This document shows, piece after piece, positions 1 through 56,674 of a DNA stretch of 64,000 nt. The DNA is from Sipunculus nudus (Eukaryota; Annelida; Sipuncula; Golfingiida; Sipunculidae), in assembly GCA_026874595.1 (NCBI GenBank), contig CM049317.1, positions 51,479,618-51,543,617 of the forward strand. Reading direction: 5' to 3'. Positions within the stretch are counted from its first letter, which is position 1; every line of letters begins with the position of its first letter. The notes under the pieces are model-generated. The model saw only the letters and a program-made list of their open reading frames with translations, did not search any database and was not told where the DNA came from. Made by a program: the position numbers and the translations under genes.

Positions 1-900
1 TAGTAGGACTCGAAGTGTCAGGAAGGATGCAAAATATGTCCTGGGGGTCACAGTCCATCTAGCCGACCAACAGAAACTTCTTATACTAAAGCGGATGAGT
101 CGAACGCAAGAAACGGGTAATATGCTGGTCTATGAGATCTAGAGATCGCCGTATAACGGGAGAGAAACCTACCGACTAGGGGTGTCCACATAGACCTTTA
201 CTTTACAGGACGTCATAAGTGAACGTGGAACGGAAAAACATATTTAAAAAAATATATATACAGCTACTGACACATTTATTTCATCCAATTATCAGCATGT
301 CCCAGCAATCACGCGGGCATTTAAAGCTGAGACAGGCTGCATTCACTTCAACAGGAGCTCTCGGTACCACTGGAAACTGTCCCCGATCGTCCGTTTCTCC
401 CCTGAAATAACGAAATGCATGTAATGTTCAGATGTGAATATCAATGAATTTGACAGTTTCTCTTATAGGACAATATTTTGTCGGAAGATTATCGTAAGAA
501 AAGATCACAGAGTCATTCATGCGTGTCATATCGCGGGATTTTATAATGCAGATGGAGCAAAGGTTAATATTTTCACGAGTAGTCATCTAAGCACACACAC
601 ACACACACACACATATATTTATATATATATATATATATAAATGATCTGCGTGTCTTTCCTAAGCGGTCACACAGCGCTCTATATTAAGTAACATATATAT
701 TGATATTATAATATAAAATAAATTTAATTCTTATGTTATCTAAAATCTTTCATAATCTGTAAAGAAATCAGTATGTTCTTGTCGGAAAAACGAGCATGTA
801 CTGTATGGGTTTTATCTTGGATAAACGGATATGTACTGTATAAACTCTTCACTTTTCCGATAAACGAGGATTTAATGTACGAGGTTTTACCTTGTCCCTC
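1..900. other. AT-rich intergenic sequence with a microsatellite
   Basis: No gene recognised. It contains (AC)n then (AT)n at about 590-640. The short open frames here look like chance. Confidence 0.6.
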
Positions 901-905
901 TCTGT

Positions 906-3900
906 CTATAAACACGCCCGCTGTTGATCAAAGGTCATGAAAGTAGGAATCATCGACATGGCGTCCTGCAGATCAGGTTTCAGTGCCAGACAGTCAGCGT
1001 TGGTTTCAAACTTCTTCCACGCGCATGTCTGAAGCTCCACTATTGCCGTTTTTAAAGCAGTGGCACTGTTATATGCAATGATTAAAAACATATCTAAGAT
1101 GTAAACACTTGTCATATATTGTCACATTTTTGTAGCCTGTCTTTTGCGTGTTTCTTTTTTTACCTCGGGAAATGATTGAATTACCCAAGGTTCCACAATT
1201 TGCCTGTTAACAACTTTATGAAAAGGGTAAGAAAGGATATTGGTGACATTTTGTGGAGGTTATGTTGCAGCTTTTTCACAATGGGTATTCCCCCCCCCCC
1301 CCCCCCCCCAAAATATTGGTTAAAAGTCGAAGACGTCACTTGAAATTTATCATACAGCGTTCACCGTTATTCACAATCCAATTACGCTTTAAACTTTTAC
1401 ATTTACGTTGGGTAAATTCTCAAACATATGCCCAGCCTACATGTATGAAATTGGGAACAGTTTCTGATGTTATTATCCCATCCCATTTTGCACGAAATTT
1501 TTATGATGACCTGGAAAATACGAAACGAATCTTGAGTATTTAGAATGCGACGTTGTAATTGGAAATTATGAAAGCTCGTAATGTGTACGATCACAATAGA
1601 TAAATCGATCGTAAGGAGATATCTGATACACAAATGTATTGGTTTGGGCGTTGGTAATCGCAGCTGACCATTAGTTGCCAGACCATCACGTGACCGTCTA
1701 AAAAGTCGCAGCCAAAATATTCCCTCTTCGACCAGCGTTCGGTCATAGAAGTCATAGTTATATTGCCCTATCACATATGACAAGTCGCAAGATTTCATTG
1801 GTTTTCTACGTTGGCCTTCCGACGACAGAACAAGTCGAACGATAATGCGGACACTGGTGGCCTTGTGATGTTCGTTCGATAGTCCTATTTAAATGTGACC
1901 GCAACTGTTTTTATGGCAAATAATCACCTACGCGATCGGCCAGACATAAAGAATTACCTACGACGCTAAAAAAATGAACATGTTCAAAAATCTACGACAA
2001 GTGCTACGAGCACCTTAATTGTTCTGTCGTTCACATGTCGTTTACCTGTTGTGCGATGTTTGGGACTTTAGCTGGTTTTCAACAACAAATGTAACCTTTA
2101 AGCGTAATAAAAACTGTTAAATCATCTATATTTCTTATATACGTGGGTAAATAGGCGCATAAATATTTAGTTTTTGTTATTAGCATCGTCCAAAAAAGGA
2201 AGAAGGTATTGAAGTGCTAATGAATTACAATATTAAATAAAAAACTAGTTAATTGTAAAATAGTGTTCCCTTAAGCCGTGACTTGGCCGACCTACTTTTT
2301 TGTATATAAAATAAACAATTAACACAATTTAACATTCGCAGTAAAATGAATTTTTACTCACCTGCAAGGGTCTGTTTGGCGCATATTATGTATGACCTCG
2401 TCTAAACATTGCAAAATTGTTGGCACGACCGGGCAGCCTGTAGACATAATATGCACCTCATCGAAAAAAATATATTACGAAACCCGTTGCAATATTTCTT
2501 TAACATGAAAATGACAAACCTGTAACAAAAAATCTCTGGCTAGAAGTACTAGAACAATTTTTCCGAGGGTTACGTAATTATTTCCTGTTCTCTGTGCGTG
2601 TATACGGAATGGCTAGTTTTAATTGCCAAAGACAAGCGCCGGACGTGTGGTGGCATATGTATGAAAAAAAAATCCAATATGAATAAAAACATTCTTTTTA
2701 TTTAACTTCATGTCACTGGGTACTGTTTAAGATAAGGAATTGTACAAAAAAGTTATCGGTTTAAGCTCTTGCGCCATCATTCATATTTAGTTATATCCTC
2801 TTACTATAATTTTAAAGCCGGTAATGGTAATCATAGACCTTTCCAGCCTCGCTGGCGACACCTACCCGCGATGGATGACAGTGAGTGCTCCGAAAGTTAT
2901 ATTGTAAAAAAAATTATATTTGCATATATTTTAAATAATAAATGAAAATATTCTTACAAAATCTCAAAGAATGAGCCACCTGTCTGAACCTCTGGCGTAT
3001 ATTAAATTTTGACAAAACTTGCAATGCAGACGAAAGTTAAGCGCAATGGACATGCACGAAGAAAAGGTATATTAAAAGTATTTTAAAGATACATTCAAAA
3101 CATTTGATAATGCAACACGTGCCTTTGCACAGGGAGTTTGCCAGGCCAGTGAATCTCTTTTCATCACGGCCGATGGAGGAGGCAATTCCTCTCGGAGACA
3201 GTTCAGTTCACCGTCAGAAATGTCGTTTAGGCAATGCTTAACGTCCTGTAACGGTCCCTGTATCGATGAAAACATCTTTATTCAATCATATCACGGCCCA
3301 TTTTACTGTGAAAATGTGATATTGTGATACTGTTTATTGTCGAGGCAGTACCTGATTAGATCGAAATCATTCAACATAAAGATACTTTGCAATATCCTGT
3401 GTCTCGGGAACTTAAAAAAGAATTTAACGTGGTAGAACGCATGAATTCTCCATGGGGAGATAATTCAGCCGGATTCAACCCTCTGATTGAATCTGCATCA
3501 AAATGTAAGAGCCCGTGTCCCATTCATTCTCAAGATTGTTTGTTCTACTCCTGCTGACATTAAAACAAACCAACCAACAGACACACATTACCATACAAAA
3601 CGTGGAACAACACATCTTTGGTCATATTAATGCCCTGGACTTCTAAATATGTTTGTTATGAAAACCTTACTTGACGTTTTGTTTGCAGGTCGTCAGAGGT
3701 AAAAGATATAACAGAAACCTAATCCTTCTCTCGCAAAGCTTGCACTGATCATTCGCCTGGACTGTACAAAGAAAAAAATTGAACATTTTGTTTGATAATT
3801 GAGAAAATAATAATTAAAAAAGAGTATCCTTACGTCTGCGAGCGAGCGCCCCCCCCCCCCCCTTGATTTTTATGTGAAACTTAAAACAAAAAGCAAAATC

Positions 3901-4408
3901 CCCATTACCCCTTATATATAGTTTAATCCTTTTGCTTGAATTAAGCGATGTGAAAGCAGTGGTGCTCCCCATGCATATAAAACATTCACTAACAAGGGAT
4001 AGACGAAGAGCCCCTGCTGTCGTTCAAAATGAAATATTTAAAGAATAATGTCAAAATCTTTAAGGATAAAACTTGTAGCGGTATTATTCTCCGAATATAT
4101 CATAATTTATGCTTGGATTTAAAAATGACAGTATGACAATAATGCACAGTATACAGATCACAATTATAGTTAAAGCAAATGTGCGTAAGACACACTTCGT
4201 ACATTTTCAATAATGGTTTATGAATTATTTTAGACAAAGACAATATTTTATATCTAACCTTTACTTGTATAAACGATATGATATTTCATCCAAACTTCCA
4301 AATTAAATATACATATACGAAGGGATTTGGACTTTGAATTAATAAAAACAATGATGTAGTTCAGGTCAAGGTTTAAACCATCGTTCCTTACACAATAAAA
4401 TGTTATAA

Positions 4409-4502
<94 letters not shown>

Positions 4503-4621
4503 CTTGATATTTCTTTATACATGATATGTATCGTTGTATTATATATACGTCATAACGGTAATGAGAATAACTTACCGAAACAGGCTGCACAGACAAACAG
4601 TAGAATTAAGCGGGCCAGCAT
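906..4621 (-). pseudogene. Five-exon paralogue of the 12-Cys secreted protein, probably decayed
   Basis: Exons on the minus strand: 4621-4576 (signal peptide MLARLILLFVCAACF), 3761-3671 (VQANDQCKLC...PLTTCKQNV), 3257-3123 (DVKHCLNDISDGELNC...), 2437-2362 (GCPVVPTILQC...TDPC) and 1065-906 (SATALKTAIVELQTC...QQRAC-L-stop). Splice sites are canonical for exons 1, 2 and 4 (gtaag, gtaag, gtgag). Intron phases equal those of the gene at 46769, and all 12 mature cysteines have counterparts. Exon 3 is 135 nt, a multiple of 3, where the phases require 3n+2. Its reading frame matches the family in the middle but shifts at both ends, so I call it a pseudogene. Shifted splice sites that rescue the frame cannot be excluded. 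The stop directly after the last cysteine means no basic C-terminal tail. Confidence 0.78.
4409..4499. repeat. (TA)n microsatellite in intron 1 of the paralogue
   Basis: About 90 bp of TA dinucleotides with one AA interruption. Translations such as YIYIYI across it are artefacts. Confidence 0.9.
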
Positions 4622-16102: not shown

Positions 16103-17103
16103 TTAAGCTACAGCAGCAAAATTTGGAAAAAACTTCCTGTAGTACCCAACCATACCAATAAAACGCATTATTTGCTTTTTGTTCTCTGTTCTAGGAAATG
16201 CAGAAATAGCACTTATCTTAGCATCAACAGGGTTTACCTGACCCTGCCCTACAATATGACCCAAAAATGTTACTTGTGCATGACAAAACTCAGATTTCAC
16301 TAAGTTGACGGTCAGACGTGCTTCAGTGAGTCTTTCGAAGAGGTCACGAAGAATTTGCAGATGTTTCTCCCAGGTGTCGCTGTACACGATGAGGTCATCA
16401 ATATATGCGTCGCAGCCCTGAATGTCCTTGACAACCACATGTATGAGGCGCTGGAATGTGGCTGGTGAGTTCTTCATGCCAAACGGCATAACTTTATACT
16501 GGTACAGTTCTTGCGACGTCACAAATGCGGACACTTCTTTCGCTCGATCTGTCAGCTAAACTTGCCAGAATCCTTTTGGCAAGTCAAACTTGTAGACATA
16601 TCTGGAGCTACCGACTCTATCAACACATTCATCGATCCTCGGAATCGGGAACGTGTCGGTCTTGGTGACAGAGTTCAGTTTTCGATAATCTGGGCACATA
16701 CGGTAACTTCCATCAGGTTTTGGCACAAGAATACATAATGAACTCCAGTTCCTGTTACTAGGTTCAATAAAATCATTGTCCAGCAAATATTGAATCTCAT
16801 CCTGTAGATACCTTTGCTTTTCTGGATTCAGTCTATAGGATGCTGCTTGACTGCGCTTGCCTCGCCAACATCGACGTCATGGCACAACATGTTAGTTCGC
16901 GTTGGAATGTCACTAAACAAATGTTCATAATTCAGCAGCAGGTTCTTGAGATCATGTTGTTGTTGTGCGGTTAGTTGTGACAGTTTGGGATCCAGGTTTT
17001 TAAGCACGTCTGAGTTTTTTAATGGTACTGTACCACACTGAATGTCTACATCACACTTACAATCAGTATCTACTTTAACTGGGTCAGGGTCAGTTTTACA
17101 CAA
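16103..17103 (-). pseudogene. rt: Retrotransposon reverse transcriptase
   Basis: The linker LKNLDPKL...LFSDIPTRT...HDVDVGEA leads into the fingers (NDFIEPSNRNWSS, ILVPKPDGSYRMCPDYRKLN, FPIPRIDECVDR) and then KFDLPKGFWQV. After a frame break at about 16540 come the palm YQYKVMPFGMKNSPATFQRL and the catalytic AYIDDLIVYSDTW, then FLGHIVGQGQV and GMVGYYRKFFPNF. The Y-x-D-D box is intact but the frame is interrupted. Confidence 0.85.
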
Positions 17104-17700
17104 TTAACAGCAGACATAAAATTAGACCCTTGGCCAGACTGGACGGACTTTGGTAATCCAAAAGTTGTAAAAAACTTGGTCAGAGCTTTGACAACACTTT
17201 TGGCATTAATTATGCGCAATGGTATTGCCTCAGGGAACCTGGTTGATGCGCACATAATTGTCAGCAAGTATTCATGTCCAGATTTTGTTTTGGGCAGTGG
17301 TCCAACACAATAAACAAAAATCCTACTAAATGGTTTCTCGAAAGCAGGAATAGGCCTAATGGGGCCTTAGGAGGATTCTGATTGGGCTTGCCTACCATCT
17401 GGCACGTATGGCATGACCTACAATATTGTACAACATCTTGCCAATAGTAGGCCAATAGAAGTGTATACTAACTTTCTGATAAGTTTTATTTATACCTAAA
17501 TGGCCAGACAAAGGAGCCTCATGTGCCATGCTTAGAACTTCACTGATAAAGCTTTTGGGCATTACTATTTGTTTTTTGATGGCCCACTCATCATCAGCGG
17601 ATACATCAGGTGGTCGCCATTTACGCATAAGCACTCCATTTTGACATAGAAACCAACAGGGTTCTGTGACAGGTCATCTTTAAAAACTGCCCTGGGAAAC
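17070..17700 (-). pseudogene. int: Retrotransposon integrase, zinc-binding and partial core
   Basis: Order on the minus strand: MRKWRPPDVSADDEW, the HHCC zinc domain (AHEAPLSGHLGINKTY ... FYWPTIGK, then DVVQYCRSCHTCQMVGKP), then core pieces CASTRFPEAIPLR, FFTTFGLPKSVQ and GSNFMS. Frameshifts lie near 17640, 17440 and 17265. The catalytic Asp expected before QGSNF is Gly (SGQGSNF). The core stops at FMS and is joined within a few codons to the RT linker, so the second half of the core and the C-terminal domain, perhaps 200 residues, are deleted. Confidence 0.78.
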
Positions 17701-24848: not shown

Positions 24849-26056
24849 AGAGTAAACAAGTGACCCAGGGGTCATGACGCTCAGCTGACCAGGAAGACAT
24901 TGACAAAAGTAATTTTATCATCTGAATGTCAAATTTGAATGAAATACTTTTTCCAAACTTGACCTTTGGTATAAAATCATCCAATTTTCATTGGGGTACT
25001 ATGGAGCTCTGTAGCATGAAGGAAATGGGTAACAGACACCTATTTTCAAGGTTTACAAGATGACTTTTCAGGGGTCTCCCAGCATGTCAAAAAATAAAAT
25101 TCTAGGTCCAGTTATTATGATTTGTGCCCTGTTAACAAATCCAAATGTTTATTCTGGGGGGTATTTCAAAGCCGCATAGGATGAAGGATATGGGTAACAG
25201 AGATGTAATTTCAGGTGCACAAGGAGACTGTTCAGGGGCCTCCCAGCATATCAAGAAAGGAGATTCTAGGTCAAGTCGTTATAATTTGTGCTCTGTTAAC
25301 AGATGACCAAATCTTTATTCTGGGGAGTACTTCGGAGCCCCAGAGAATGAAGGATATGGGTAACAGGGACCTAATTCCGGGTTTCCATGTAGACCTTTTA
25401 TGGGCTTCCCTGGAGGTGAGGACAGAAGATAATAGGTCCAGTCATTATGATTTGTGCCCTGTTAATATATGACCAAATCTTTATTCTGGGGGGTACTTCA
25501 GAGCCCCATAGCTCACAGAATATGGGTAACAGGGACCTTATTTCGGGTTTCCATGTAGACCTTTTATGGGCTTCCCTGGAGGTGAGGACAGAAGATTCTA
25601 GGTCCAGTCATTATGATTTGTGCCCTGTTTACAGATGACCAAATGTTTAAAGATCACAAAAGTAGAGAAAAAAAATCGAAAAAAAATTTTAAAAAATATA
25701 GGTGGCACCACCAATCTGCAGAAATTGATGAAACACTCCATGATCAATATCCATGCAAAGAATCATGGTGATTAATGCATTAGTTGTTCAGATACTGGAG
25801 CTTTTGTATTAAATTTTGCATTATTCTGGGGGGTACTTCAGAACCCCATAGCTCAAAGAATATAGGTCACAGTGACCTAATTTCAGGTTTACAAGGAGAA
25901 TTTCCATAGACCTCCCAGGATTTAAAGTAATAAGATTCCCGGTCTAGCGGTTACGATTTGTGCCCTGTTAACAGACAGACGCCTGGATGGCCGGACGGAC
26001 GACGGACAAAAGGTGATCACTAAAGCTCAGATGACTTTCAGTCAGCTGAGCTAAAA
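24849..26056 (+). mobile_element. Helitron-like element with tandem core
   Basis: The left end is aaacaagtgacccaggggtc then atgacgctcagctgacc. Several tandem units repeat cttcagagccccatagc, atgggtaacagggacc and tctaggtccagtcattatg. The right end has ggacggacgacggacaaaag and the hairpin gctcagatgactttcagtca...gctgagctaaaaa at about 26025-26056. Confidence 0.62.
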
Positions 26057-28385
26057 ATTGAAAAAAATACAGGTGGCGCCACCAGAATGCAGAAACTGAT
26101 GAAACATTTCATGATCAATATCCATGCAAATAATCATGGTGATCAATATGATAATTGTCCAGATACTTGAGCTTTTGTATCAAATTTTCCTGGGGAATAC
26201 TTCGGAGCCCCATAGCTCAGAGGTTATGGGTAACAGAGACCTAATTTCAAGTTTTTAAGGAGACTTTTCATGGGCCTCTCAGCATGTCAAGAGAGAAGAT
26301 TGTAGGTCCAGTTGTTACGATTTGTGCCATGTTAACAGATGACCGCATCTTATGAGGTCTCAAAAAAAGAGAAAAAAATTCGTAAAAATAAAAAAAATAC
26401 AGGTGGCGCCACCGTACTGCAGAAACTGATGACACATTCCATGATCAATATCCATGCAAAGAATCATGGTGATCACTGCAATAGTTGTTTAGATACTTGA
26501 GCTTTTGTATCAAATTGTCCATTATTCTGAGGGATACTTCAGATGACTTACAGTCAGCTGAGCTAAAAACACTTAATGGTCAATATCCATGCAAAGAATC
26601 ATGATGATCTCCGTATTAGTTGTTCAGATACTTCAGCTTTTGTATCAAATTGTCCATTATTCTAAGGGATACTTCAGAGTCCTATAGCTTGAAGGATATG
26701 GGTAACAGAGAACTAATTTCAAGTTTCCACAGGCACTCTTCATGGGCCTCCTTGCATGACAAGAATGAAGTTTCTAGGTCCAGTTGTTGCAATTTGTACC
26801 CTCTTGATAGATAACCACATCTTCAAAGGTCTCGAAAAAAGAGAAAAAAAATTCGTAAAAATTTGAAAAAAATAGAGGTGGCGCACCCTCTCTGCAGAAA
26901 CTGATGGAACAGCTCATCATCAATATGTATGCCAAAAATCATGACCATCAGTGTTGTAGTTATTGAGATACTGCACTTTTTGTATCAAATTTTCCATTAT
27001 TCTGGGGGGTATTTTGGAGCCATACAGCCTAAAGAATATGGGTAACAGAGACCTAATTTCAGGTTTCCATGGAGAATTTTCATGGGTCTCCCTGTGTGTC
27101 AAGAATGAAGATTCTAGGTCCAGTCGTTACGATTTGTGCCATGCTAACAGATGTTCACATTTTTAAAGGTCTCAAAAAAAAGAGAAAACAATTCGTAAAA
27201 AATAATAAAAAAAAAAAAAAAGGGGTGGCGCACCCAGGCTGCAGAAACTGATGACACACTCCATGATCAAAATCCATGCAAACAATTATGGTGATCCCTG
27301 CATTCGTTGTTCAGATACTTCAGCTTTTATATCAAATTTTCCATTAATCTGAGCTGTACTTTGGAGTGCCACAGCTTAAAGGATATGGGTAACAGAGACC
27401 TAATTTCATATTTCCATGGAGACTTTTCATGGGTCTCCCTGTGTGTCAAGAATGAAGATTCTAGGTCCAGTTGTTACTATTTGTGCCATGCTAACAGATG
27501 ACAGCATCCTTAAAGGTCTCAAAAATAGAGGAAAAAATCGTAAAAAATTGAACGATACAGGTGGCGCCACCAGTCTGCAGGAACAGATGACACATCTCAT
27601 GATCAATAGTTATGCCACAAATCATGACCATCATTCAAGTAGTTAATGAGATACTGAAGTTTTTGTATGAAATTTTTTACTTTTCTTGGGGGTACTTTGG
27701 GGCTCCATAGCTCGAAGAATATGGGTAACAGAGACCTAATTTCTGATTTCCATAGAGACTTTTCATAGGTCTCTCAGTGTGTCAAGAATGAAGATTCTAG
27801 GTCCAGTCTTTACGATTTGTGCCTTGTTAACAGATGTTTACATTTTGAAAGGTCTCAAAAATAGAGAAAAAAATTCGTAAAAAATTGAACGATACAGGTG
27901 GCGCCACCAGTCTGCAGGAAGTGATGGAACATCTCATGATCAATATGTATGACAAAAATCATGACCATCAGTCAAGTATTTAATGAGATATTGAAGTTTT
28001 TGTATGAAATTTTGGACTTTTCTGGGGGGTACTTTGGGGCCCCATAGCTGGAAGGATATGGGTAACAGAGACCTAATTTCTGGTTTCCATGGACACTTTT
28101 CATAGGTCTCTCAGTGTGTCGAGAATGAAGATTCTAAGTCCAGTCATTACAATTTGTGCCTTGTTAACAGATGTTCACATTTTTAAAGGTCTCAAAAATA
28201 GAGAAAAAAATTCGTAAAAAATCGAAAATACAGGTGGCGCCACCAGTCTTCAGGAACTGATGGAACCTCTCATGATCAATATGTATGCAAAAAATCATGA
28301 CCATCAGTCAAGTAGTTAATGAGATATTGAAGTTTTTGTATGAAATTTTGGACTTTTCTGGGGGGTACTTTGGGGCCCCATAGCT
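26057..28385 (+). repeat. Continuation of the ~340-bp tandem array
   Basis: Successive units carry caggtggcgccacc (for example at 26073, 26402, 27560, 27898, 28234; spacing about 330-370). A truncated right-end hairpin sits inside at 26533-26572. The array stops abruptly at 28385 within cccatagct. Confidence 0.75.
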
Positions 28386-30409: not shown

Positions 30410-32772
30410 ACCATGAACCTTCATGGTAGGAAATGCAAATCATCTGCCTTTAGAGATCAACTTTTTATTATATATCAATAAATACAGAAATACACAAGAC
30501 TGAAGCACTCAGATAAAAGGCTACAGCCTGGCATGTGTCAGCTTATCTACTTATTACTTTTTATCAGGTGCCTGATTTGAAAAAAAAAACTGATGTTCTT
30601 ATGGTTAACCACAACAATGAGTGAAATATAGTGTAAAGTTAAATAGACCTGGTATGGACTCTTTGTTTTTAGGCAAATCTGGTCTTTATTATTGGTATCC
30701 CCCTTGTCTATTCCTATATTTAAATTAGTATTTTTGTTGGACCTTGTGGACTTGCATAAGTATATATTTTACCATAGAAGAAGATCTGTGCTTGTATCCA
30801 TGTTTTATTAAGGATTTGTTATATGTATTAACATTATTTAGATATCAAAATAGTTCTTCCCATGACATTGAATAGAATGATCATATGTCTATGTGTCTGC
30901 ATAGTATTTGACCACTGTCTTGTTCAAACTGTGCAATCATATACATGTAATTGGTACAATGTAAATGCTGTCCTTAAACAATTTTCTCCTTCATGTAACA
31001 GTGATCTTAATTTTTTTTACTGCAAAACTACAGGACTTTTCATTTCCACATGTTGCGGGTTAAGTTGCAATTGGATTTTTTTTCACATGAAATCCACATT
31101 GAAAATTTATTAGTGTGCAAATCAAGGTTTATAGGTTTGTGCTTTTAACTTTCACCTCCAAAAATGCAAGTAATTTATTAATGCAGCAGAGCTATACCTT
31201 AACATATGTATCACATAGACTAACACATAGCAAGTATTCACTTTTTTTTCATTACCGTGGGCTCTTTCACCGGGGTATACAATAAGGGAAAAGAACTGGG
31301 GGGGGGGGGGGGGGGGGGCTACAGTAACCGTCTCTTTTCTAAGAGGCTTCCCGAAGACTGGCAGTAGTATACTCAGCTGGGCACACTAAAATCATACATT
31401 TGAGACCTTTCTAACATTTTGTTGAATTAAAACTTTAAATACTTTGTTGTTGTATTTTTATTCTGGGTAAAATCCTACAATGTCACATTTGATTTCGATT
31501 AGAGATGGTCCAATAAAATTCCATTGATGTGTCTGATCATGAAGGCAAGGCTACAGATATGCCAACAATGCCATGTTACATACTCAGAGGAAACCATTTC
31601 AACAATTTTTTTCAAAAAAAAAAACAGGTTTTAAAAACTATGGTTCCTTAAGAACAGCTGTAAATTCTTCTCAGAGAAATTCTTGTAAGTTGTTTTAATG
31701 CTGACAGGGAATATGATACAGGTCAAGGTTGGAAAAAATAAAGTCTGTGCTGATATACAACTGATTTTGTATTATACTTGTATAGTGGTCATATCAATTT
31801 GATAAAATTAAAACTACAGATTATATGTCAGATTCAGACCAGCTCACTCAGTATGTGCTGTACAAATCATATAAGTATATAACATGTTTGCAAACTTATA
31901 CCAAAGCCAAAAATATAGTGACTGATGAAATGAATTTATTTTGTCATGGACATAAGGGTGCTTCTTCAGTATCTTTCTGGAACTAAAACTTTACATTTTA
32001 GAACAGCACCAGTCTCCAAAATTACTAGTAGTACAACAGCATGTTCTTTATTTACAGCTGAACATATAGTGATCAGCTATTGAGATGTACCCTGCTATAT
32101 ATAGGAGCATGTCAGTAGCAAAAAAAAATCCCAGTTTAGGTTAAATAGGTTTTACCAAGTTATTCTTCAGAATTGGTTTTACCACTAATTTCTGTTATTC
32201 AGAGTGATGTGCTTTGTACATGCAACCCAACATGAGTTACAGTGCAAGTAGCGAATGGGTGTAAATAGCTTCTTTTAGACAGGGATGATGTGGTCAGAGC
32301 CACTTGGCTTAGCTACCTATGTTCTCAAAATGTGTGCTTAACTTTTTTTGACCAATTCAAAAGAAGCTATTCTTTAAAAAATATATTCAAATATACTGGG
32401 CAAAAACCTGGGGTATATATTGGGTAAAACCTAGAAAAAATACTTTTAACCCAGGTTTTATCCACTGGATTGGGTAAATAGGTTTTACCTAGGTCAAATG
32501 GCAACCCTGAATATACTACTGTTTATTGCCCTCACATAAAATATGTGTCAGGTGACTTTCCTTTTCAAACAATAATCTCCACTACACCATTTATATGTAT
32601 ATTTTATGTCCTTAGGTATCACCTAGAGATCAAAACTATCAAAACGACATGGATATTACTGTAAATGCAATAAATTAAATTAAGTAAGCCCTTCAGTGCT
32701 GGTTGACTGGCTTTGATTCAGTAAATTATTTGATGCACTATTACATGCAGCCCAAAATACATACTGATAGTC

Positions 32773-37470: not shown

Positions 37471-39026
37471 TTAGCTCAGCTGACTGTAAGTCATCTGAGC
37501 TATAGCAATCACTCTTTGTCCGTCCGGCCATCCGGCCGTCCGGCCGTCTGTCCGTTAACAAGACACAAATCGTAACCACTGAATCTGGAATCTTCTTACT
37601 TTACATCCAGAGAGGTCCATGAATAATCTCCTTGGAAACCTGGAATTACGTCTCTGTTACCAATATTCTTCAAGCTATGGGGCTCCGAAGTACCCCCCAG
37701 AATAATGAAAAATTTGATACAAAAGCTCGAATATCTAAACAACTAATGCATTGATCACCATGATTCTTTGCATGGATATTGATCATGGGGTGTTACATCA
37801 GGTTATGCAGACTGGTGGCGCACCTGAATATTTTTTTAAAATTTTTTCTCTTTTCTTCAGACCTGCAATGAAACTGTCATCTGTTAACAGGGCACAAATC
37901 GTAACCACTGGACCTGGAATCTTCAAACTTAATATCTAGGGAGGTCCATGAAAAACCTCCTTGAAAACCTGAAATGAGGTCTCTGTTACCCACATCCTTC
38001 AAGCTATGGGGCTCCGAATTACCCCCGTGAATAATGCAAAATTTGATACAAAAGCTCAAGTATCTAAATTACTACTGCATTGATCACCATGATTCTTTGC
38101 ATGAATATTGATCATGGGATGTTCCATCAGTTCCTGCAAACTGGTGGCGCTACCTGTATTTTTTCCAATTTTTACGAATTTTTTCATTATTGTTGAGACC
38201 TTCAAAGAAGCTGTCATCTGTTAACAGGGCACAAATCGTAACCGCTGGACCTAGATTCTTCTTACTTGACATCGAGGGAAGTTCATGAAAAGTCTCTGTG
38301 AAAACATAAAATTAGGTCTCTGTTACCCATATCCTTCGTAGTAAGTACCCCTCAGAATAATTAAAAATTTGATACAAAAGCTTCAGTATCTGAATAACTA
38401 ATGCAGTGATCTCCATGATTCTTTGCAGGCATGTTGACCATGGAGTGTTCCATCAGTTCCTGCAAACTGGTGGTGCCACCTATATTTTTTCAATTTTTAG
38501 GCATTTTTTCTCTATTTATGAGACCTTCAAATGAAGTGGTCATCTGTTAACATGGCACAAACTGTAACTGCTGAACCTAGAATCTTCTTACTTGACATCC
38601 AGGGAGACTAATGAAAAATCTCCTTGGAAACCTGAAATTAGGTTTCTGTTACACATATTCTCTGAGCTATAGGGCTCATAAATACCCCCAAGAATAATTA
38701 AAAAATTGATACAAACAAAAGCTCCAGTATCTGAATAACTAATGCCTTGATAGCCATGATTCTTTGGATATATATTGATCATGGAGTGTTTTATCAGTTC
38801 CTGTAGACTGGTGGCACTAACTGTATTTTTTTTCAAATTTTTACGCATTTTTTTTCTATTTATGAGACCTTCAAATGAAGTTGTCATCTGTCCAAAAGCC
38901 CACTGAAACCCATTCCTAAGGACACTTCACAATATTCATGATTTGTTTGCACTCTGGCAGTCATTTTGCTCATTGTTCAACATTCCATGAATTTAGCAGA
39001 GCGTCATGGCTCATGGGCCACTTGTT
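37471..39026 (-). mobile_element. Helitron-like element, minus orientation
   Basis: It starts with ttagctcagctgactgtaag then tcatctgagc, followed by gtccgtccggccatccggcc. About four ~340-bp units follow (shared words ggcacaaatcgtaacc, catgattctttgcat, gatacaaaagct). It ends with gcgtcatggctcatgggcca then cttgtt. The LTR at 39026 directly abuts this end. Confidence 0.65.
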
Positions 39027-46183: not shown

Positions 46184-46768
46184 TTAAATTAAAATCCTAA
46201 AATAGGGTGGGCAGAAAATTCTACCTTTAGCTGTTGGACTTATAATTCAGCCCTTAAGCAATTCAGAAATATCGCATTCTCGAGCGGCAGACAGTAACTA
46301 AGCAGACAGACAAATTAGGCAGCGAAAACATTATATTCGCCTATTCAATGCCAAGTTAAAACCACCGACATTGTTCATCTTTCTCTTTTACGCAAAAGGT
46401 GGTAGCCCAAACATTTTACAATCATGCCAACATGCGCAGCGAAAAAGGACAAAGCGCTTAACTCATAAAAAAATAATACAATGTCAAGTACCAGCATGGC
46501 TTAATTTTGCATTTAGATGACTGTCGGGAAAGTGATCATAAAGAAAGGTCACATTCATTACAGAGCTGGAGAACTGTTAAGCTAAATGTCTATACCGGTC
46601 GACAGGCAAATATGGGTGAAACATGCACCCATTCTTCTGTAATTATATAGAAAAGAGGGTAATAAGATAATATAATAGAAATGAGGGAGGGTACCGGACG
46701 TCACATGATTCAGCATTGAAAAATTTAGTCCACGGCCTGCAGCTCATTCCGACGCACCAACTGTCACC
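46184..46768. other. Upstream region of the 12-Cys gene
   Basis: No other gene is seen. There is no unambiguous TATA box, although ataatataatag lies at 46667-46679 about 100 bp before the start codon. ggacgtcacatg at 46696-46707 resembles half of a CRE. Both are only candidates. Confidence 0.3.
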
Positions 46769-46814
46769 ATGCTGGCTGCCTTGGTTCTATTTGCTCTCTG
46801 TGCCTCTGGGTTTG
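46769..46814 (+). other. Exon 1 (signal peptide) of the 12-Cys gene
   Basis: This coding exon is 46 nt long, starts at ATG and ends at the donor TTTG|gtaggt in phase 1. It encodes almost all of a hydrophobic signal peptide. Its length and phase are identical to exon 1 of the minus-strand paralogue (4576-4621). Confidence 0.88.
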
Positions 46815-49800
46815 GTAGGTATCTTGTTTACAGTATGACTGAACATTTACTGGAGTAGAATGTACCGTAATGAACATGTACCGCAAAATAAAGGAGTATT
46901 TCTGTAGAAAGGCTCCTCTCGCGTAAGATTTTCTTCGAAATAACTGCATTTCCTGAACACCTGAAATATTTCCAAAAGTTAAATAGTCAAATTTTATGAA
47001 TGAATGAATGTTTTATTTCAGACACATACATTGGTCTATATATAGATGATTATTATGACAATATTACAGGAAATATTATTATAATGTTTATAATACAAAT
47101 GACAATTCTCTTTACTTTTTACTCATTTTTCTTACTTTTTTTACAACTCATTTTGAACATTTTGAATTTGTTCGGAAAAAAAGTATTAACTCGATTACCG
47201 ATGATTACTTTATTAATAATGGAAGAATACGAAAAAGCATTTGTATTACAAACATAAATGTTCAAAATATGTTCACCAAAAATATTTTTAAAATAGATGG
47301 TTGGAATACATGAAAAGTTTAAGTGTTTCTGGTAAACTGCTTCTACCAGGAAATGTAACATTTAACATTAATATTCTTTCGTCTTCAAAAATTGCTAGAT
47401 AGTTTCTGTAGTACTGCCGAAAACGTACTATTAAAAGTTGGTCTTTGAAGTTTTCATTCATTTTATCCCAAACATTTAATGAAATTATTCAGTTCTACAT
47501 TGCAACCTTAAAATTGTCGAACTGGCTTTTAAGGTCCAAACTTTATTCTGTGGGATGTGATTTTCATTTTTGGATTGTTATTTGATAAAGCATGGCATTC
47601 GATCACATATATCATTTCCTGCGTGCCGCACCGCTATAATAAGATTGTATCACATCGCGATCCCTTTATACATGATTTTTGTGCATTCCACATTATGCAT
47701 TCCGTGCATATGGGATCATAGTTTTATTTTGCTGTATACATTGTGTCATCGACAGCCCAGGCTAACAATGACTGCGCGGCTCAAAGACAATGCGGACAGA
47801 AGCTGTCGTCCCTGCAGCCTGCATACCCTCTAACGACCTGCTCAGAGGACGTCAAGTAAGAACTTTGTGTACATTAAGTAGTATATATGAAGTTTACATA
47901 CATTTTGTCACAAATTTTTGATTAAATTATTTATTTCAATATTGCAACCTTTTAAAATGGTTGACCACGCTTTTTTGGTCGATCGTCACTCTGCAGCATG
48001 TGATTTTCATTGTTGGCGCCACCTGTGTTGACCTACTTTCTGCAAGCTGTAATGGTCTTGTTTGCCTTTTTTCAAAAGATGTCATAAAGTATTAATATTT
48101 TGGCTTTCATAGCAAAGTTAAAATTTGCTAAAAGGAAGAGAAATAACATGAGTATAAATTCAGGCAAATTATTTTCAATATGGCATCTCTACGGAACTTT
48201 AAATTGTGTCGATCACAAAATGTGACAACTTGATGTGTTTCTATACGTGATGTATTGTCTGTTACCAAATATCTTAGGAACTGCTGCAGCTTTCAGTATC
48301 AAATTTCACGGGAATATTGATCATCTGACTGCTTAATAATTTTGACCTACAGGTAGCTACTTTCTGCAGGCTGTTATGTTTTTTCTGCTTGTTATGTATT
48401 AATATTTGTTATAATCTTTCGGAGACCCGGCATAGTTGTTCCCTCGCCTATGCAGTTGTGCGTAACAATGACGGGTGGCGCCACCTATACTCCTTTCTGT
48501 GCAGTACGAATATGGGTGTCTTTTAGATAACAGCCCATATCTCAAGAGTGGTTAAATGTATTGAGCTGAAATTCTGCATGTCCATAGATCTTGGATCTCT
48601 CCTCCTGGTAATGGAGACTGGTGGCGCCAACTGTAATACTTTTTGCGAAGCGTCCATCTTTGCATTTGCCATCTATTCGTCTTAGTGGTTTATTAAGTGT
48701 ATTGGGTTGAAGTTGTGCATGTCCATAGATCCTCGACACCTCCATCTCGTTAACAAAACTGGTGGCGCCGTTTGCAATCATTTTTCCCTGGCGTCCATCC
48801 GTACATTTGCTTTGGATGAAAATTGCTCATTTCTCAGGAGTGGTTCAAGGTATTGAGCTAAAATTTGGCATGTCAATCCATCTTGGAAAGTTTTCTCGTA
48901 AACCAGACAGGTGGCGCAACCTAGCTTCCCGTTTTCGTAGAATAAATTAATGCCTTTTTCTAAGGAGTGGTTTGCCGTATTGGCCTGAAATTGTGCATGC
49001 TCATAGATCTTGGACTCCTCCATCTTGTACTCGAGACTGGTTGCGTCATCTTCAATCGTTTTCTCGTCGCGCCACCCGTACATTTGCTTTGGGTGAAAAT
49101 TGCTTATATCTCAGGAGTGGTTCAAGGTATTGTTCTGAGATTTGGCATGTCCATCCATCTTGGAAAGTATTTTGAAAATCAGACAGTTGGCGCCACCTAC
49201 CTTCCAGTTTTTGTAGAATAAATTAATGCCCTTTTCTGAGGAGTGATTTGGCGTATTGGCCTGAAATTGTGCATATCCATAGATCCATATCCTCCATCTT
49301 GTACTCAAGACTAGTAGCGCCATCTGCAATCGTTTTCCCATGGCGTTAATCCGTCAGGTGGTTTAGTGTATTGGTCTGAACTTGTATTGGTCTGACAGAT
49401 GGCAAAACCTACCTTCCTGTCTCCACTGAATAACTTAATGCTCTTTTCTCAGAGCTTAAGTGGACTTTATTGAGGAGTTGTGTGACATATGGGCCTGAAA
49501 TTGTACATGTCTGGGATTATTTATGTCATATTTAAAGAGTGATGATGCTATTCAGCTGTTTTCATGTGGCTAAAATCCTACTTAAACTGTTTTACTGAAA
49601 AGTTTTGCCTACCGATGATCATGGTTTTATAGTTTATGTTTAATCAAACTTCTGCTAATTTCCACCTACATTTTTTTGCAATTTCTTGGAGGTTATTAAT
49701 GTTTTGCCCTGTCTACTGTACACACTCTATTTCCCCTTATCTCACTTCACCCGTACCACTCTGATTTCACCAGATACACGTTGTCGCTTGTCGACAACCC

Positions 49801-52774
49801 GTATTCTAGTTTGGCTTCCATACAAAGTAAATAATTGCTTAAAGGAAGTGAATAAAATAAGTATAAATTCAGTCAAATTATTTTCAATATTGCGTCCTTA
49901 CGGAAGTTCAAATTTTGCCAAACACAAGATTTGACAATTTGTTGTGTTTGCAATCGTGATGCAATATCTGTTACCACATATGTTAGAAAATGCTGCAGCC
50001 TTCAGCACAAAATTTCACAGGAATATTGAGCATGTGACCGCCATTTGATTTTGACCTGCAGGTGGCGTAACCTGTGTTGACCTACTTTCGGCAGGCTGTT
50101 AAAGTCTTTTCTCCCCTTCAAATTAAGTATTACTATTTTGAGCTTCTTATCAAAGAAAACACTTCCTTGAAGGAAGGGAAATAAAATGAGTATAAATTCA
50201 GTCAAATTTGTTTCAAGATGGTGCCTTTACAGAACTTCAAATTTTATCTTCTGATTAATGTATTTCCTGTCCATCCTTTGCTCTTACATTTTTAGTTCGT
50301 TCACTCTCTAAACTTGTGCAACAGGACAGTGTCCACTTGGAAAGGAATGAATGGTATTTTCACATTCATTTTTTGCTTTCTTTATCATCCACCATCGTGC
50401 AAAGTAGTGAACATTAGACCCCTTGGTCTCTTGTTACTAAATATTACCTTGTGCACCTACAGCACTGTTTTTGCTTGGCTATTTTCACGTTCCTGTCACA
50501 GAACTTAAGCACTTCACTTCAATTTCTCAGGAAACTAAGCTGCCGGTGGCCTCAGGGTGACGTAACAGCTTAACAACTTGTTAATTTAATTAACAGTCAG
50601 TCAAAGCCTGTACAGAATAACAACCACTATACATCTTCTTAAATGTCTTCCGAATTTGCAAACTTATTTAATGATTTTCTTTTAGCTTTTTGCAAGATTG
50701 GCAACATGAATTCGTTTCATATTAAGTCAACACTCGATATCACCTAACATTTCAATGAAATTCATTAATTAATGTGGTGTGATACAATATCTGGATTAAA
50801 TTTTCAAGCGGGCCTAAATACGAGGTATGCGGTTTGTGGGTGCTTTCTAGTTTCTTATTTCCCGGGTCTATTTTCCTTTGGTAAAATTTGCGCTGTTCTG
50901 TAGAACCAATGCCGTTAATTAGTCTCAGCATCAAGTGGTTTGAAATTCAGTAAATATCTATATAAAGTAAAACCTCTACAATGTGGGTACCCTTGGGACT
51001 GGGCCAAACTGCCCACTCTACAGAGGTGCCCACTACATGGAGGCCATGATTGCAACCTATATAATATGGAGAAGAAATCACGGGACTGTCAAAAACTGCC
51101 CACTATACAGAGGTGTCCACTTAATGGAGGTGCCCACTAGAAGAGGTCCCACTGTATCTATATATATGCATACAGTAAAACCTCGCTTGTCAGTTGCAGA
51201 GCTCACTTAAATCGAAAAAACAGCTTTTGCCGAAGTTTCATATTCGGAGTTCGAAGTTTAGTTTTTGCCTTCGCCAGGAGGGTATGCGTTCATCCCCGTT
51301 CATGTGTGTTTTTGTGTGTGTTTGTGTTTGTGTGTTTACAACATGACTCACGCAAGCTTAAACAGATTCTCATGAAATTTTCAGGGCAATTCGGGAATTG
51401 ACCATTCAAGACTCTGTTAGATTTTGGTGTGGATTCTATACATGACCCGGATTCAGAAAAGCCATCACGGAATAATCACAAATGTACAGTCACTTATGTA
51501 TGAATGGACTTGGGAATATAGGCCGAATATGTGACTTTAAACCCGGTTTCGTGAGCATCCCTCAATAAAGAACCTCCACATGGCGTAGGCATGCATTCCG
51601 TAGAATGTAGATTTCTGGTTGGGGAAAAAGGCGTTTGTGTATTACAGATTAAATTTTCTATTGTATTTACATTTGAATCATGTTTTTCGGAACATACCTA
51701 TGATTTTGTAACCCATATCGAAGGCTAATTTGTTTCTTTGAAATATAAAAAATGAGATACTATACTTACACTATAATGATCTAATCTTTCGTGTCTTAGA
51801 CATCTGTCCAAAAACTGATAAAATGCCCGGCTTATCTCACCTGTACAGGAACAAAATACCAGAAGCGAAGACATGCCTGACCGACATGATGACCGGTAAA
51901 CTGACATGCATGCCAGCGGGTGCCCCTCCTATGCAAATCTTACCTGGCAAAGTCGGAGTGATCAGAAAAGGAATCGAAGGCTTGGCAAATTCAGTGTGTA
52001 AAGGCAAGTGTCTACACTTTCATTTCAGCTTTGCATATGCACTACGAGTAAGGTGTGCGTCTTGTTAGTCCTAATGAGTCTGCAGAAGCGGACCCAGAGG
52101 GCGGTCCAGGGGTTCTGAACTCCCCCCCCCCCCCCCCCCCCCCGCCGCCTCTTCAACCTTTTTGTAAGAGGTTCTGACCAGTTGCGGCATGGAACCCCCC
52201 TCCCCGATTTTTCGGACCCGGGTACTTTTTTAGGTTTTATCATTAGTCCTAACGGGCTGGATCCCTCCTTTTCCTAAATCCTGGATCCGCCCCTGGTCTG
52301 GCTAACCGCCCCGGTGTGGCTTAAAACATACCTGATCCGGCTTACCTCTTGTTAAAGCCAGCTATTCCCTACCTTTTTTCTATAGAATTTGTGTGACTTC
52401 CGACTGACTGTGCGTACCTATTAATTATAATGAACTCCATGTAATGCCTCATAAGAAATGTACTCATAACGTCCCTGTGATGCAGGGGCGTCAATATAGG
52501 GGGATGGGGGAGGGGGGGGGGGGCTATATATTCCCTCCACTCTTTGGCAAGGGGGGGGGGGGTTAATGTAATCATCCCCCCTCACTATTCAGAGAATAAC
52601 ATTTATATATTGCAGATGAAATGTATTCATGAATAGAATTATAGACTTTGGTTCCATATATGAGTTTATTATGAAATATCATATCTAAACATAGTTTAGA
52701 ACTTATACTGGATACATAATACGTTATTTCTAAAAATTTATAATAAACTGTAATATAACTGAAATGTCATTAGG

Positions 52775-52809
<35 letters not shown>

Positions 52810-55800
52810 TTGAAATGTGTCATACAGAGGATTAAAAAAGTTATTTTGTCCAAACAATCGCATTAAAGTGCTCAACATATATATATATATATCACTGCTG
52901 TGATGGATGCATGTGGTTGATTGCATTTGTTGGTTGCAAAAGGCCCTTTGATAAACCCTGGTGCGTTTGAATTGCATCATTATTTTTGCCGGCCACTTCC
53001 TTGTTATAAAACACGTAACATAAGGTGGTTTGTTACATGTAAGCTGAAGTTGAACGCTCACTAGCTGAACGATCACTAGTTGCAAAACGCCCTTCCCAAA
53101 ACTGATTCGTCTGGTTGTTTTGACGGGCCACCATTTGTTATAAACACGTGGATATAAACAAACTAACAGCCAGTGTGCCGTTGGGTCAGCCTTCCCTGGC
53201 CTTTTTCTATAAATGGGATTACCTTGAGTGAATACACGTTAGATATCGGAATTTTCCCCTGTGAAGTGAAAACAAAAATAAAAAAAACATTTCTGCATTA
53301 TGATTTGAATAGTTCTAGGAAAATTCAATGTTTCCTGGAAGTTTATTTTTCAGACCTTGGCCTTTTAACACATTTTTGCTGACATGCTGCATGTTTTCTA
53401 GGTTGCCCAATCGTATCAGCCATTGTGGAATGTATCAAACCAGTAGCATCTACAATAGATCGCGTCAATCCCTGCAAGTAAGTATGGACCTGCTTTTTAA
53501 TTGATTTTTTACCACATGTATGTTGAATTGTAAATCAAAATCCTCAATGACCCGGAGGGGGGGGGGGGTGGTTCTTTGATCATAAAACTAGTCGTGATCC
53601 TAATAAGACTTGGTTGGCTTTAGGAAATTTGAGGACAGATCCTGCCACCTAGAGATCAACTTATAGTTGCTTATTCAAAACAAAATCTCCGGGTATGGTC
53701 AATATTTGACTGTTAAGGTAAAAACGTTATATTCGTTGTCCTCGTATTTGAAATTTACATTTCTCTTTTTTCTATCTGAATATGCAGCTATCGTCACGAC
53801 ATGTAATTATGAAAGTTGAAAACTGAATTACTGACACATTTGAGTGAATTCGATCCCATGATCGCTTATTATTCGCTCAACAACGGCACCTCTAGTTACT
53901 GCTGGTTTATTAAGAATATGTGAGAGCCCCGAGGGGTAGATTTGAAGATTATTGAGGAAATATTAGGAAACTATAAATTATCTAGATGACAGAACTATCT
54001 CTAAATCGCTCTGTTAGAGGTCTGCGTTTTTCTCTCCCAGTAAAAGAGGTGTATGAGGTACCTTGGTTGGCCATTACACACACATACAGTGCCGTTTTCC
54101 ACATGACCGTCGTCACGACTCGGAGTAGGCCCTATACGTCCACAAATAGCCTACTGAATCTAAAGGCCTGCGATTGTCAATGCCTTTACACTACAAGGAT
54201 TACGTGTCTGTATCACACTTCTAGCCAAAATGTTAGTAAAAATAGAAAGATATTGCGGGAGGTAATCTTTCTGACATTGTCTTATTTGTTAGCCCATGTG
54301 ATAAATATACTCTAGACCACATGCTTGATAAACAATTGTATTCTGTGCAGGATTACCTGATTCAGTTTAAATAGAAAATGAAAATAGAATGTCTAAAAAT
54401 CAGTGAGCATTACAAGAACAATGCAGCCTTGGGTTCTAAATTGGCATAGGTAAAGGTTGTGGGGTTTATAGTCTGATATCAACGACGATGTCAGTCAAAT
54501 ACGACTTAATTTTACACTGGCAATCAATTTGGAAGATGGGATTGAGCATTAACATAGAAGAAAGACACTACTTTGAAACAGAAAGGAAACGGTTGATAAA
54601 TGTATCCACTGTGACAGTATTATAATTCATATATTTCCCTATATGTTTTTTTTTTTATAATTTATTTATATTCTGTATATCCTCAGATGTTTGAAATTCA
54701 TCTATATATAATATTTCAGCAAAATTGCTTTCTACACTGTTCTTAAAGAGGTTGTTTCGGAGTTTATATACTATATATTTTGTTATGTTTTACACTCTTC
54801 AATAATCATATTATTATTCATATTATTTTAGTGAAACTGCTTTCTACGCTATGGTCGCTAAGGTCCAGAACTGCATGGTAGGCAAGCTGGCGCCCAGCAT
54901 GGAAGCCTGCCTGGCAGTTCGACCCCATATAATCGACACCATGAAGGGGATAATTGAGTATGTGAATAACAGCAGGAAACAGGCATGTCAGAGGAGAGAA
55001 GGCTCGGGTCAGTCACCATATATATATAGTATACCCTTGATAATCCGTACAAAGCGTGGGGGCAACACAGGCTAGAGCACTAAAACATTTGGCTCAGCAA
55101 ACGGTCAGGCGGGTGAAGGTTTAGGATTGCATAAAATGCAAGACGCCCCTTGGATATGCGAACTTTATGATATATATGTGAAGTTCGACCCCCACAATAT
55201 AAACATAAAATGTTCTCATGCGCATAGCAAATCGTGACCACTTTCATATCTATGGAGCCAGTCCGTTGCCAAAATTCGTCATACAAATTGTGTGGTCATA
55301 CAGAAGGAACCACGTTCTGCCTTTTCATAGGTTCTCAGTGACTCAGCATGACCTTTTGGTCAACCAAAACAACGGCAAGAGTTTGTTGAAAGTTATTAAA
55401 TCACGAATATTGGAAAGCCAAAGTAATTTATCGAAATATTTTTGTTATCATACTGTTAAGTCAATCTACGTGGGCCAACAATATTAACAAGCAAATTCGT
55501 GGAATTTATGTCCTCCGCTTCCGCCTCTTTTTGTCCCCCTTTTACCTTCTCAATATGTTTTAATTTTTATTTTCCCCTGAAAATGTCTCCACATGTCATT
55601 GTGCCTGTGTTTTAGTTTTCATTGTCCTCTGAAGATGTCTCCACACATCATAATTAATTTTTGTGAATTCTGAACAAAAGGGAATTTTTGTTTGTTTGTT
55701 GTGGAGCTTGTGATAATAATTTTTCAGACAGACACTCCAAAACCATTCCAAACCAAAATATGCATGAGAGCAACCAAAATTTGAATGAAATCGGATAATA

Positions 55801-56288
55801 TTTAGGAAAGTTATTGCACGGAAACGAAAACCTGACGTACGGACAGACAGACAGACAGCTAGACTGACAGACAGACAAACCAAAATCAATGTCTAACATT
55901 TCGCGGAAGCGGGGGGGGGGGGATACTTAAATGTATCAATGCAGTATGTAGCACATTAATGGAATCAGTTTAATATCTAAGGGTTTTAGTTGTGCTTTTC
56001 ATGATGGCTCAGTAAGAAAGGAACAATCATTTAGCCAAAATTAAAATCTATTAATTTCATCATGATACTGATTAATTTAAACAACATCTTGTTAATATCA
56101 GTAGGCAGTTCCTTTCCGCTGGCTTCCTACAACTTGCCAATATCGCCGCATTTTTTGTTACTCATTTAGCCTGTCCAATAATTTTTTTTTATTTAGATAA
56201 CTTGGTAATGAACAGCATGAAACTAAATATATCTCTCGTTTCAGTTTTACATTGATGGAATTTGGGATAGGCAAAGTTTGGCCAGTTG

Positions 56289-56354
<66 letters not shown>

Positions 56355-56584
56355 CCATCTTAACACACAAGCAGGTGTAAAGAATGTTAATGTACTTTGT
56401 TTGTTAACTGGCCTCATCAGGTATTTCTTACGTATATCTAATTTGTAATTTACTGATAATCTTCCAAAGATCACTAACATTGATATAAACATTTGAACTG
56501 TTATTCTTCATTCTTTCAGCAAGAAAACGGTCGATCGTAGACAGCCTCAAGGAATACCAGGATTTCCTTTGGATGTTTAAGTGA
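46769..56584 (+). CDS. Six-exon gene for a secreted 12-cysteine protein (205 aa)
   Basis: Exons: 46769-46814, 47756-47855, 51849-52003, 53402-53477, 54832-55007, 56520-56584. Intron phases are 1,2,1,2,1 and the joined frame is open to TGA at 56582-56584. Residues 1-18 are a signal peptide (MLAALVLFALCASGF, then AQA before NND). The mature chain has 12 cysteines at about residues 22, 28, 44, 58, 69, 99, 102, 111, 125, 140, 152 and 178, with short amphipathic segments between them. N126-E-T and N171-N-S are N-glycosylation sequons. A basic RKR (186-188) precedes a 17-residue tail. No membrane segment is seen beyond the signal. I infer an extracellular, disulfide-bonded, mostly helical protein. 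The final cysteine block loosely recalls the insect 27-kDa haemolymph glycoprotein (DUF1397) layout, but that is only a guess. The start sits in CAACTGTCACCATG, which the paralogue at 4621 shares. Function unknown. Confidence 0.88.
47756..47855 (+). other. Exon 2 of the 12-Cys gene
   Basis: The acceptor is catcgacag| and the donor gtcaa|gtaaga, for 100 nt entering in phase 1 and leaving in phase 2. It encodes AQANNDC... through PLTTCSEDV with cysteines spaced C-x5-C-x15-C. The paralogue exon 3671-3761 has the same PLTTC block with C-x2-C-x15-C. Confidence 0.87.
48470..49420. repeat. ~120-250-bp tandem array in intron 2 of the 12-Cys gene
   Basis: Diverged units repeat words such as ctcaggagtggttcaaggta, gaaattgtgcatg, ccatagatcttgga, and (g)gtggcgccacct near 48477, 48621, 48760, 48908, 49188. 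Frames found across it are shadows of the repeat. The rest of intron 2 also has single units at about 48015 and 50060. Confidence 0.7.
50965..51165. mobile_element. Mariner-type MITE in intron 2
   Basis: Left end agtaaaacctctacaatgtg; right end, reversed, acagtgggacctcttctagt. Internal halves repeat gcccac.(c)tacagaggtgc. ACAGTRRRACCTCT termini at TA are typical of Tc1/mariner miniature elements. A second cagtaaaacctcgcttg end follows at 51175. Confidence 0.55.
51270..51640 (+). repeat. Copy of the 'tatgcgttcat' dispersed repeat
   Basis: It matches 10860-11160: gccaggagggtatgcgttca, tctcatgaaattttcagggc, catcacggaataatcacaaa, tagaatgtagatttctgg. It lies in intron 2, 200 bp before exon 3. Confidence 0.55.
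51849..52003 (+). other. Exon 3 of the 12-Cys gene with a GC donor
   Basis: The acceptor is cctgtacag| at 51848. The exon is 155 nt and encodes NKIPEAKTCLTDMMTGKLTC and onward to NSVCK. The best donor is AAAG|gcaagt at 52004, a GC-AG intron with an otherwise perfect consensus. An alternative GT donor after 51997 (T|gtaaag) has the same phase and would drop two residues (KG). cDNA would decide between them. Confidence 0.8.
52083..52295. mobile_element. MITE with CAGGGGCGGATCCAG-type termini in intron 3
   Basis: Left CAGAAGCGGACCCAG; right, reversed, CAGGGGCGGATCCAGGA. A 5-bp direct repeat GTCTG flanks it (52078-52082 and 52296-52300). A 22-bp C run is inside. Related pieces lie at 21866-21995 and 29755-29960. 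Confidence 0.6.
53060..53240 (+). repeat. Dispersed repeat, copy 1
   Basis: The words actagttgcaaaacgcc, tataaacacgtggatataaa, caaactaacagcc and tttttctataaa recur, diverged, at 58555-58770. Confidence 0.5.
53402..53477 (+). other. Exon 4 of the 12-Cys gene
   Basis: The acceptor is ttttctag| and the donor tgcaa|gtaagt, for 76 nt. It encodes GCPIVSAIVECIKP...VNPC with three cysteines. The paralogue exon at 2362-2437 has exactly the same length, phases and cysteine positions (GCPVV...QC...DPC). Confidence 0.87.
54719..54765 (+). pseudogene. Duplicate of the start of exon 5 in intron 4
   Basis: The sequence atatttcag|caaaattgctttctac resembles the true exon 5 start tatttta|gtgaaactgctttctac about 112 nt downstream, including the 10-mer tgctttctac and an acceptor. 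In the same phase it reads NKIAFYTVLKEV against NETAFYAMVAKV. No donor follows before the real exon. It is either a failed tandem exon duplication or a cryptic alternative acceptor. Confidence 0.5.
54832..55007 (+). other. Exon 5 of the 12-Cys gene
   Basis: The acceptor is tatttta|g ending at 54831 and the donor is TCGG|gtcagt, for 176 nt. It encodes NETAFYAMVAKVQNCMVGKL...CLAVRP...QAC...EGS with three cysteines. The paralogue exon at 906-1065 aligns along nearly its whole length. Confidence 0.87.
55010..56510. other. Intron 5 of the 12-Cys gene
   Basis: No other exon recognised. It contains an internally repeated gacagacagaca stretch (55840-55880), a G run at 55911 and a (TA)n tract of about 62 bp at 56292-56353. 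Confidence 0.55.
56520..56584 (+). other. Terminal coding exon 6 of the 12-Cys gene
   Basis: The acceptor is ttctttcag|. The exon encodes ARKRSIVDSLKEYQDFLWMF, then K and TGA. It adds a basic cluster and a 17-residue amphipathic tail that the paralogue lacks. Confidence 0.83.
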
Positions 56585-56668: not shown

Positions 56669-56674
56669 AATAAA
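56669..56674 (+). promoter_or_regulatory. Polyadenylation signal AATAAA
   Basis: AATAAA lies 85 nt after the stop codon of the 12-Cys gene, on the same strand. It is the first canonical hexamer after the stop that I can see. Confidence 0.6.

Follow-up and report, generated by a model that had tools for sequence, protein, structure and literature searches.

A six-exon gene for a predicted secreted twelve-cysteine protein in a local cluster of copies in Sipunculus nudus

The locus raises two questions: whether a six-exon reading of this Sipunculus nudus DNA is a real gene and what kind of protein it would encode. The window, i.e. the whole stretch of DNA analysed, is 64,000 nt long and corresponds to positions 51479618-51543617 of contig C12, in an assembly that comprises 153 contigs and 1.43 Gb.

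Gene 1 and its copies

The candidate (gene 1) was rebuilt from the sequence at 46769-56584 on the + strand. Its start lies at 46769 and its stop codon ends at 56584, with five introns between, and the six exons give 205 codons with intron phases 1-2-1-2-1. The original prediction of a six-exon gene with a start, a signal peptide, five phase-consistent introns in alternating phases 1 and 2, a stop and a polyadenylation signal was thus reproduced. The features considered are the following:

46519..46768, + strand, stretch upstream of gene 1 similar to the upstream stretch of gene 2 (local score 133.5)
46769..46814, + strand, exon 1: signal peptide, phase 1 out
47756..47855, + strand, exon 2: C1-C3, phase 1 in, phase 2 out
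51849..52003, + strand, exon 3: C4-C6, phase 2 in, phase 1 out
52004..53401, + strand, intron 3: GC-AG, its GC donor common to all four intact copies
53402..53477, + strand, exon 4: C7-C9, phase 1 in, phase 2 out
54832..55007, + strand, exon 5: C10-C12, phase 2 in, phase 1 out
56520..56584, + strand, exon 6: KR site, C-terminal tail, stop
56669..56674, + strand, polyadenylation signal AATAAA

Four of the five introns are GT-AG, and intron 3 is GC-AG (AAG/GCAAGT). The most likely cleavage of the signal peptide, read by eye, is AQA/NND, which leaves a mature chain of 187 residues with a calculated mass of 20.4 kDa, a calculated pI of 9.02 and two N-glycosylation sequons. There are 13 cysteines, one of them in the signal peptide (exon 1) and 12 in the mature chain. 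The twelve mature cysteines that had been predicted were therefore found, but they are spread over four exons (2-5, three each, with none in exon 6) and not over six.

With gene 1 masked, the remaining window was searched with each of its exons; the six best matches all fell at 343-4621 on the - strand, in order and on one strand, with E values for exons 1-6 of 0.008, 2.5e-4, 0.001, 4.6e-5, 3.2e-4 and 0.33, respectively. We refer to these matches as gene 2:

4576..4621, - strand, exon 1
3671..3761, - strand, exon 2
3123..3257, - strand, exon 3, frame broken
2362..2437, - strand, exon 4
891..1065, - strand, exon 5, stop codon directly past C12
343..401, - strand, exon 6, in which KR and tail can still be made out

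Gene 2 is a decayed paralogue of gene 1 that has kept its exon layout; we consider it decayed because the frame of exon 3 is broken and a stop codon stands right past the twelfth cysteine. The aligned pieces of the two genes have 70 identical residues over 183 codons, and the differences between them are lowest at second codon positions (0.35) and highest at third positions (0.52). The likeness of the upstream stretches (133.5) exceeded the maximum of 300 shuffles (118.5); of 300 segments taken elsewhere in the window, one scored as high. Profiles built from two rows for exons 2-6 matched only gene 1 and gene 2 in the window, the next match having an E value of 0.056.

Outside the window, twenty 10-kb flanking stretches were searched exon by exon, for a total of 263,617 bases with the window included. 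The cluster consists of five copies on one contig, i.e. four intact ones (gene 1, alpha, beta and gamma) and the decayed gene 2. The three intact copies outside the window, in window-relative positions, are:

-44786 to -52775, - strand, alpha: open through six exons, 207 aa
-24050 to -17894, + strand, beta: open through six exons, 195 aa
67337 to 78888, + strand, gamma: open through six exons, 207 aa

The prediction of a small paralogue family nearby was right in that paralogues exist; in the window, however, there is just one, decayed and 42 kb away, and the three intact ones lie outside. All four intact copies agree in their exon phases, in the GC donor at intron 3 and in 13 cysteine columns (12 of them mature), and all four have an invariant KR site, behind which exon 6 encodes a tail that is similar among them and 15-17 residues long. 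Among the matches listed, alpha mirrors gamma in inverted orientation with pieces 78.6-84.1% identical, and beta likewise resembles gene 2, inverted, with pieces 84.6-88.5% identical. On C12, a large inverted duplication was observed at about 51426100-51558600 (window -53.5 kb to +79 kb), in which alpha/gamma and beta/gene 2 are mirrored.

In whole-genome searches, the matches inside the cluster were three for gene 1 exon 5 at E<=0.001 (self included), five for beta exon 5 at E<=1 and three for gene 1 exon 2 at E<=1. No copies were found outside the cluster with these three exons, in a search that scores the best candidates only, so that more diverged members could escape it.

Judged on its sequence, gene 1 is a real gene, because the paralogue in the window repeats its exon order and the three outside keep its exon phases and cysteines. 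Secreted, cysteine-rich orphan proteins are frequent among invertebrates, and a single copy is seldom convincing by itself; in this case the exon structure and all twelve cysteines are fixed by four intact paralogues.

Elsewhere in the window, retroelement remains were observed at 16106-17673 (- strand), with matches to reverse transcriptase, to the integrase zinc-binding domain and, below the cut-off, to the integrase core, in separate open frames. Tandem arrays at 25012-28385 and 37554-38891 have units of about 166, 336 and 326 bases with the common word GATATGGGTAACAG or its complement; a satellite had no match when compared with plasmids. Intron 2 of gene 1 holds diverged repeats every ~115-150 bases (48503-49511), with related sequence in intron 4 of gamma. 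An open frame at 30832-31110 (+ strand), possibly due to chance, has a hydrophobic start and a cysteine run (..YTCNW..SPSC..YCKT..STCCGLSC..) and had no Pfam match. In the window, Rfam gave no matches at the gathering threshold and ARAGORN no tRNAs.

Two halves of six cysteines

Exons 2+3 and exons 4+5 carry six cysteines each, and each pair has phase-1 borders and a phase-2 intron inside. In gene 1 the cysteine spacings are 5-15-13-10-29 for exons 2+3 and 8-13-14-11-25 for exons 4+5. In a test that was devised after the pattern had been seen, half-spacings as close as these came up 12 times in 20,000 random placements and 8 times in 20,000 permutations (10 and 15 times in a repeat run). For alpha/gamma the corresponding counts were 27 of 20,000 placements and 15 of 20,000 permutations; for beta they were 5 and 133.

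The residues of the two halves were compared as well. With local alignment, between 290 and 1771 of 2000 shuffles did as well as the four pairings of gene 1 and gene 2 halves. With cysteine-anchored alignment, 41 of 1000 shuffles were as good for gene 1, while the remaining pairings gave 78, 836 and 328 of 1000; hhalign gave a probability of 0.15% for half against half. A tandem duplication of a two-exon, six-cysteine module is, on the exon and cysteine layout, likely, although unproved, and the residues give it no support, their comparisons being close to chance apart from the anchored one of gene 1. The layout of three cysteines in each of four exons (3-3-3-3) provides a testable hypothesis, concerning both module duplication and disulphide pairing, and a motif with which relatives can be sought.

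For segments picked by eye, an amphipathic-helix signal as high was found in 1 of 2000 shuffles for the exon 4 segment, 68 for exon 3 and 108 for the end of exon 5, and in two of the seven segments tested the helical moment did not stand above the shuffles (1168 and 551 of 2000).

Proposed explanation and alternatives

Our leading explanation, which we put forward tentatively and at somewhat less than even chances, is that gene 1 is a functional gene, in a local cluster, for a secreted, disulphide-locked and probably all-helical protein of two six-cysteine modules with a binding or carrier role. The chain would run from the signal peptide through a module from exons 2+3 and one from exons 4+5, the two arisen by tandem duplication, to the KR site and the tail of 15-17 residues. 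Each module would adopt a helical fold held by three disulphides, which, by analogy with the snail protein CRASP described below, may be one simple bond and two nested ones. Secretory cells would release the protein, a prohormone convertase possibly removing the tail at KR, and in the body fluid it would serve as a carrier or binding protein; this role appears the most likely of several and is not established.

Pairwise dN/dS over the four intact copies was calculated with the Nei-Gojobori method (custom script). The values were 0.37 for alpha-gamma, 0.56 for gene 1-alpha and 0.46 for gene 1-gamma, and those of beta were 0.34 against alpha, 0.36 against gamma and 0.43 against gene 1; whole-gene dN/dS is thus below 1 in all six pairs (range 0.34-0.56), so that the coding sequence is under constraint. 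Between 47730 and 47878, over exon 2, gene 1 shares 93% identity with alpha (150 columns) and with gamma (129 columns), the other aligned pieces of gene 1 being 68-80% identical to alpha and 65-81% to gamma. For exon 2, dS between gene 1 and alpha is 0.04, compared with 0.38 for the whole gene; between gene 1 and gamma the two values are 0.19 and 0.41. This exon 2 tract looks like a putative gene conversion.

These values bear on the view that the protein is a rapidly evolving secreted protein of defence or reproduction, with its surface under diversifying selection. Clustered duplication and gene decay would agree with it, and in exon 4 dN is above or near dS for gene 1 against alpha (0.40 vs 0.29) and gamma (0.32 vs 0.37), as raw values over 26 codons; the whole-gene ratios below 1 in all six pairs speak against it, and we regard it as unlikely. 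That gene 1 itself is untranscribed or dying, as the decay of its sister copy gene 2 in the window might suggest, is extremely improbable given its six-exon open frame, its usable splice sites and its dN/dS of 0.43-0.56 against the other intact copies. The invariant KR and the similar tail in exon 6 would also suit a peptide-hormone precursor, in which the active peptide is the C-terminal one past KR and the cysteine-rich part is its carrier, an arrangement seen in neurophysin-type precursors. The tail, however, has no amidation signal and is not repeated, as read from the sequence, its helical moment is ordinary (263 and 433 of 2000 shuffles as high), and the cysteines are invariant, so that we rate such a precursor as distinctly improbable.

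Family membership was addressed with profile and structure searches. For none of the four intact proteins did Pfam-A give a family at E<=10, a result to be read with the HMMER filters in mind, which discard most matches above ~0.1. Against the PDB nothing was significant, the best E values being 0.86 for gene 1 and 1 for the four-row profile. As regards Pfam-A, the statement that gene 1 matches no named family held, and the strong match that had been named as counting against it was not found. None of the titles or abstract openings consulted names its family, and of seven pattern matches of exon 5 to viral contigs none was confirmed. The suggested echo of DUF1397 in the last cysteine block received no support from these scans. 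A member of the DUF1397/27-kDa haemolymph glycoproteins that has diverged beyond profile reach would have a similar size (profile 207 positions) and the same secreted cysteine-rich character, but the empty Pfam-A result stands against it, as does the absence of PF07165 matches in this genome, a weak search in which the 14 control genomes were silent too; we consider it very unlikely. The mollusc-type haemocyanin domain PF14830 likewise gave 0 matches in this genome, again with silent controls.

The predicted product of gene 1 is a secreted twelve-cysteine protein with no family name so far. A wider claim, about which we remain doubtful, is that the copies represent an unnamed extracellular family and fold, built from a tandem two-exon, six-cysteine helical module with phase-1 borders, confined in this genome to one inverted-duplicated cluster and with a C-terminal peptide released at the conserved KR, of which CRASP would perhaps be a remote member minus one bond.

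Comparison with known systems

DUF1397 proteins (PF07165) are secreted, cysteine-rich chains; gene 1 is similar to them in size but has no match to their profile. The nematode DUF19/T20D4.11-like domain (PF01579) is extracellular with twelve conserved cysteines, two characters that gene 1 would have in common with it; gene 1 differs from it in having no Pfam match, and in the Pfam-A scans the intact proteins stayed below the curated cut-off of the DUF19 profile.

The nearest described analogue of the gene 1 protein is CRASP, the cysteine-rich atrial secretory protein of Achatina achatina haemolymph (UniProt W1I921; PMC4596865), by analogy and not by significant sequence kinship. CRASP is a secreted protein of 158 residues, released from atrial cells, with ~60% helix and ten cysteines, paired as a simple Cys3-Cys8 bond and nested 39-85/49-56 and 97-129/109-118 bonds, which were determined by mass spectrometry and one of them by elimination (PMC4596865). 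Its authors found no relatives in the databases of 2015 and advised seeking homologues by disulphide pattern and cysteine spacing; in pilot experiments they obtained negative results for antibacterial, opsonic, agglutinating, haemolytic and neurotrophic activity, and they propose ligand binding (PMC4596865).

Like the gene 1 protein, CRASP is secreted and similar in length, it starts with C-x4-C (C-x5-C in gene 1), and its block C-x9-C-x6-C-x28-C resembles C-x13-C-x10-C-x29-C of gene 1. Unlike it, CRASP has 10 cysteines instead of 12, a C2-C3 gap of 30 instead of 15, and an acidic calculated pI of 4.57 against 9.02. The sequence compared comprised the 142 of 158 residues given by published tryptic peptides (PMC4596865). 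In local alignment with gene 1, 19 of 1000 shuffles were as good (25 of 1000 with the cysteines kept), and 60 of 1000 in anchored alignment; for the family profile, 115 shuffles were as good among the 878 scored of 1000. On these residues, kinship between the two sequences appears not significant.

A spacing set as close to that of CRASP was obtained in 22 of 3000 random arrangements, alike for the best register, which drops C7 and C12 (distance 34), and for the bond-model register, which drops C7 and C8 (distance 60); when spacing is the only measure, six or more alternative registers lie closer to CRASP than the latter. Supposing that the bonds of each gene 1 module were a simple one and a nested pair, the plan of CRASP would be the same minus the second simple bond.
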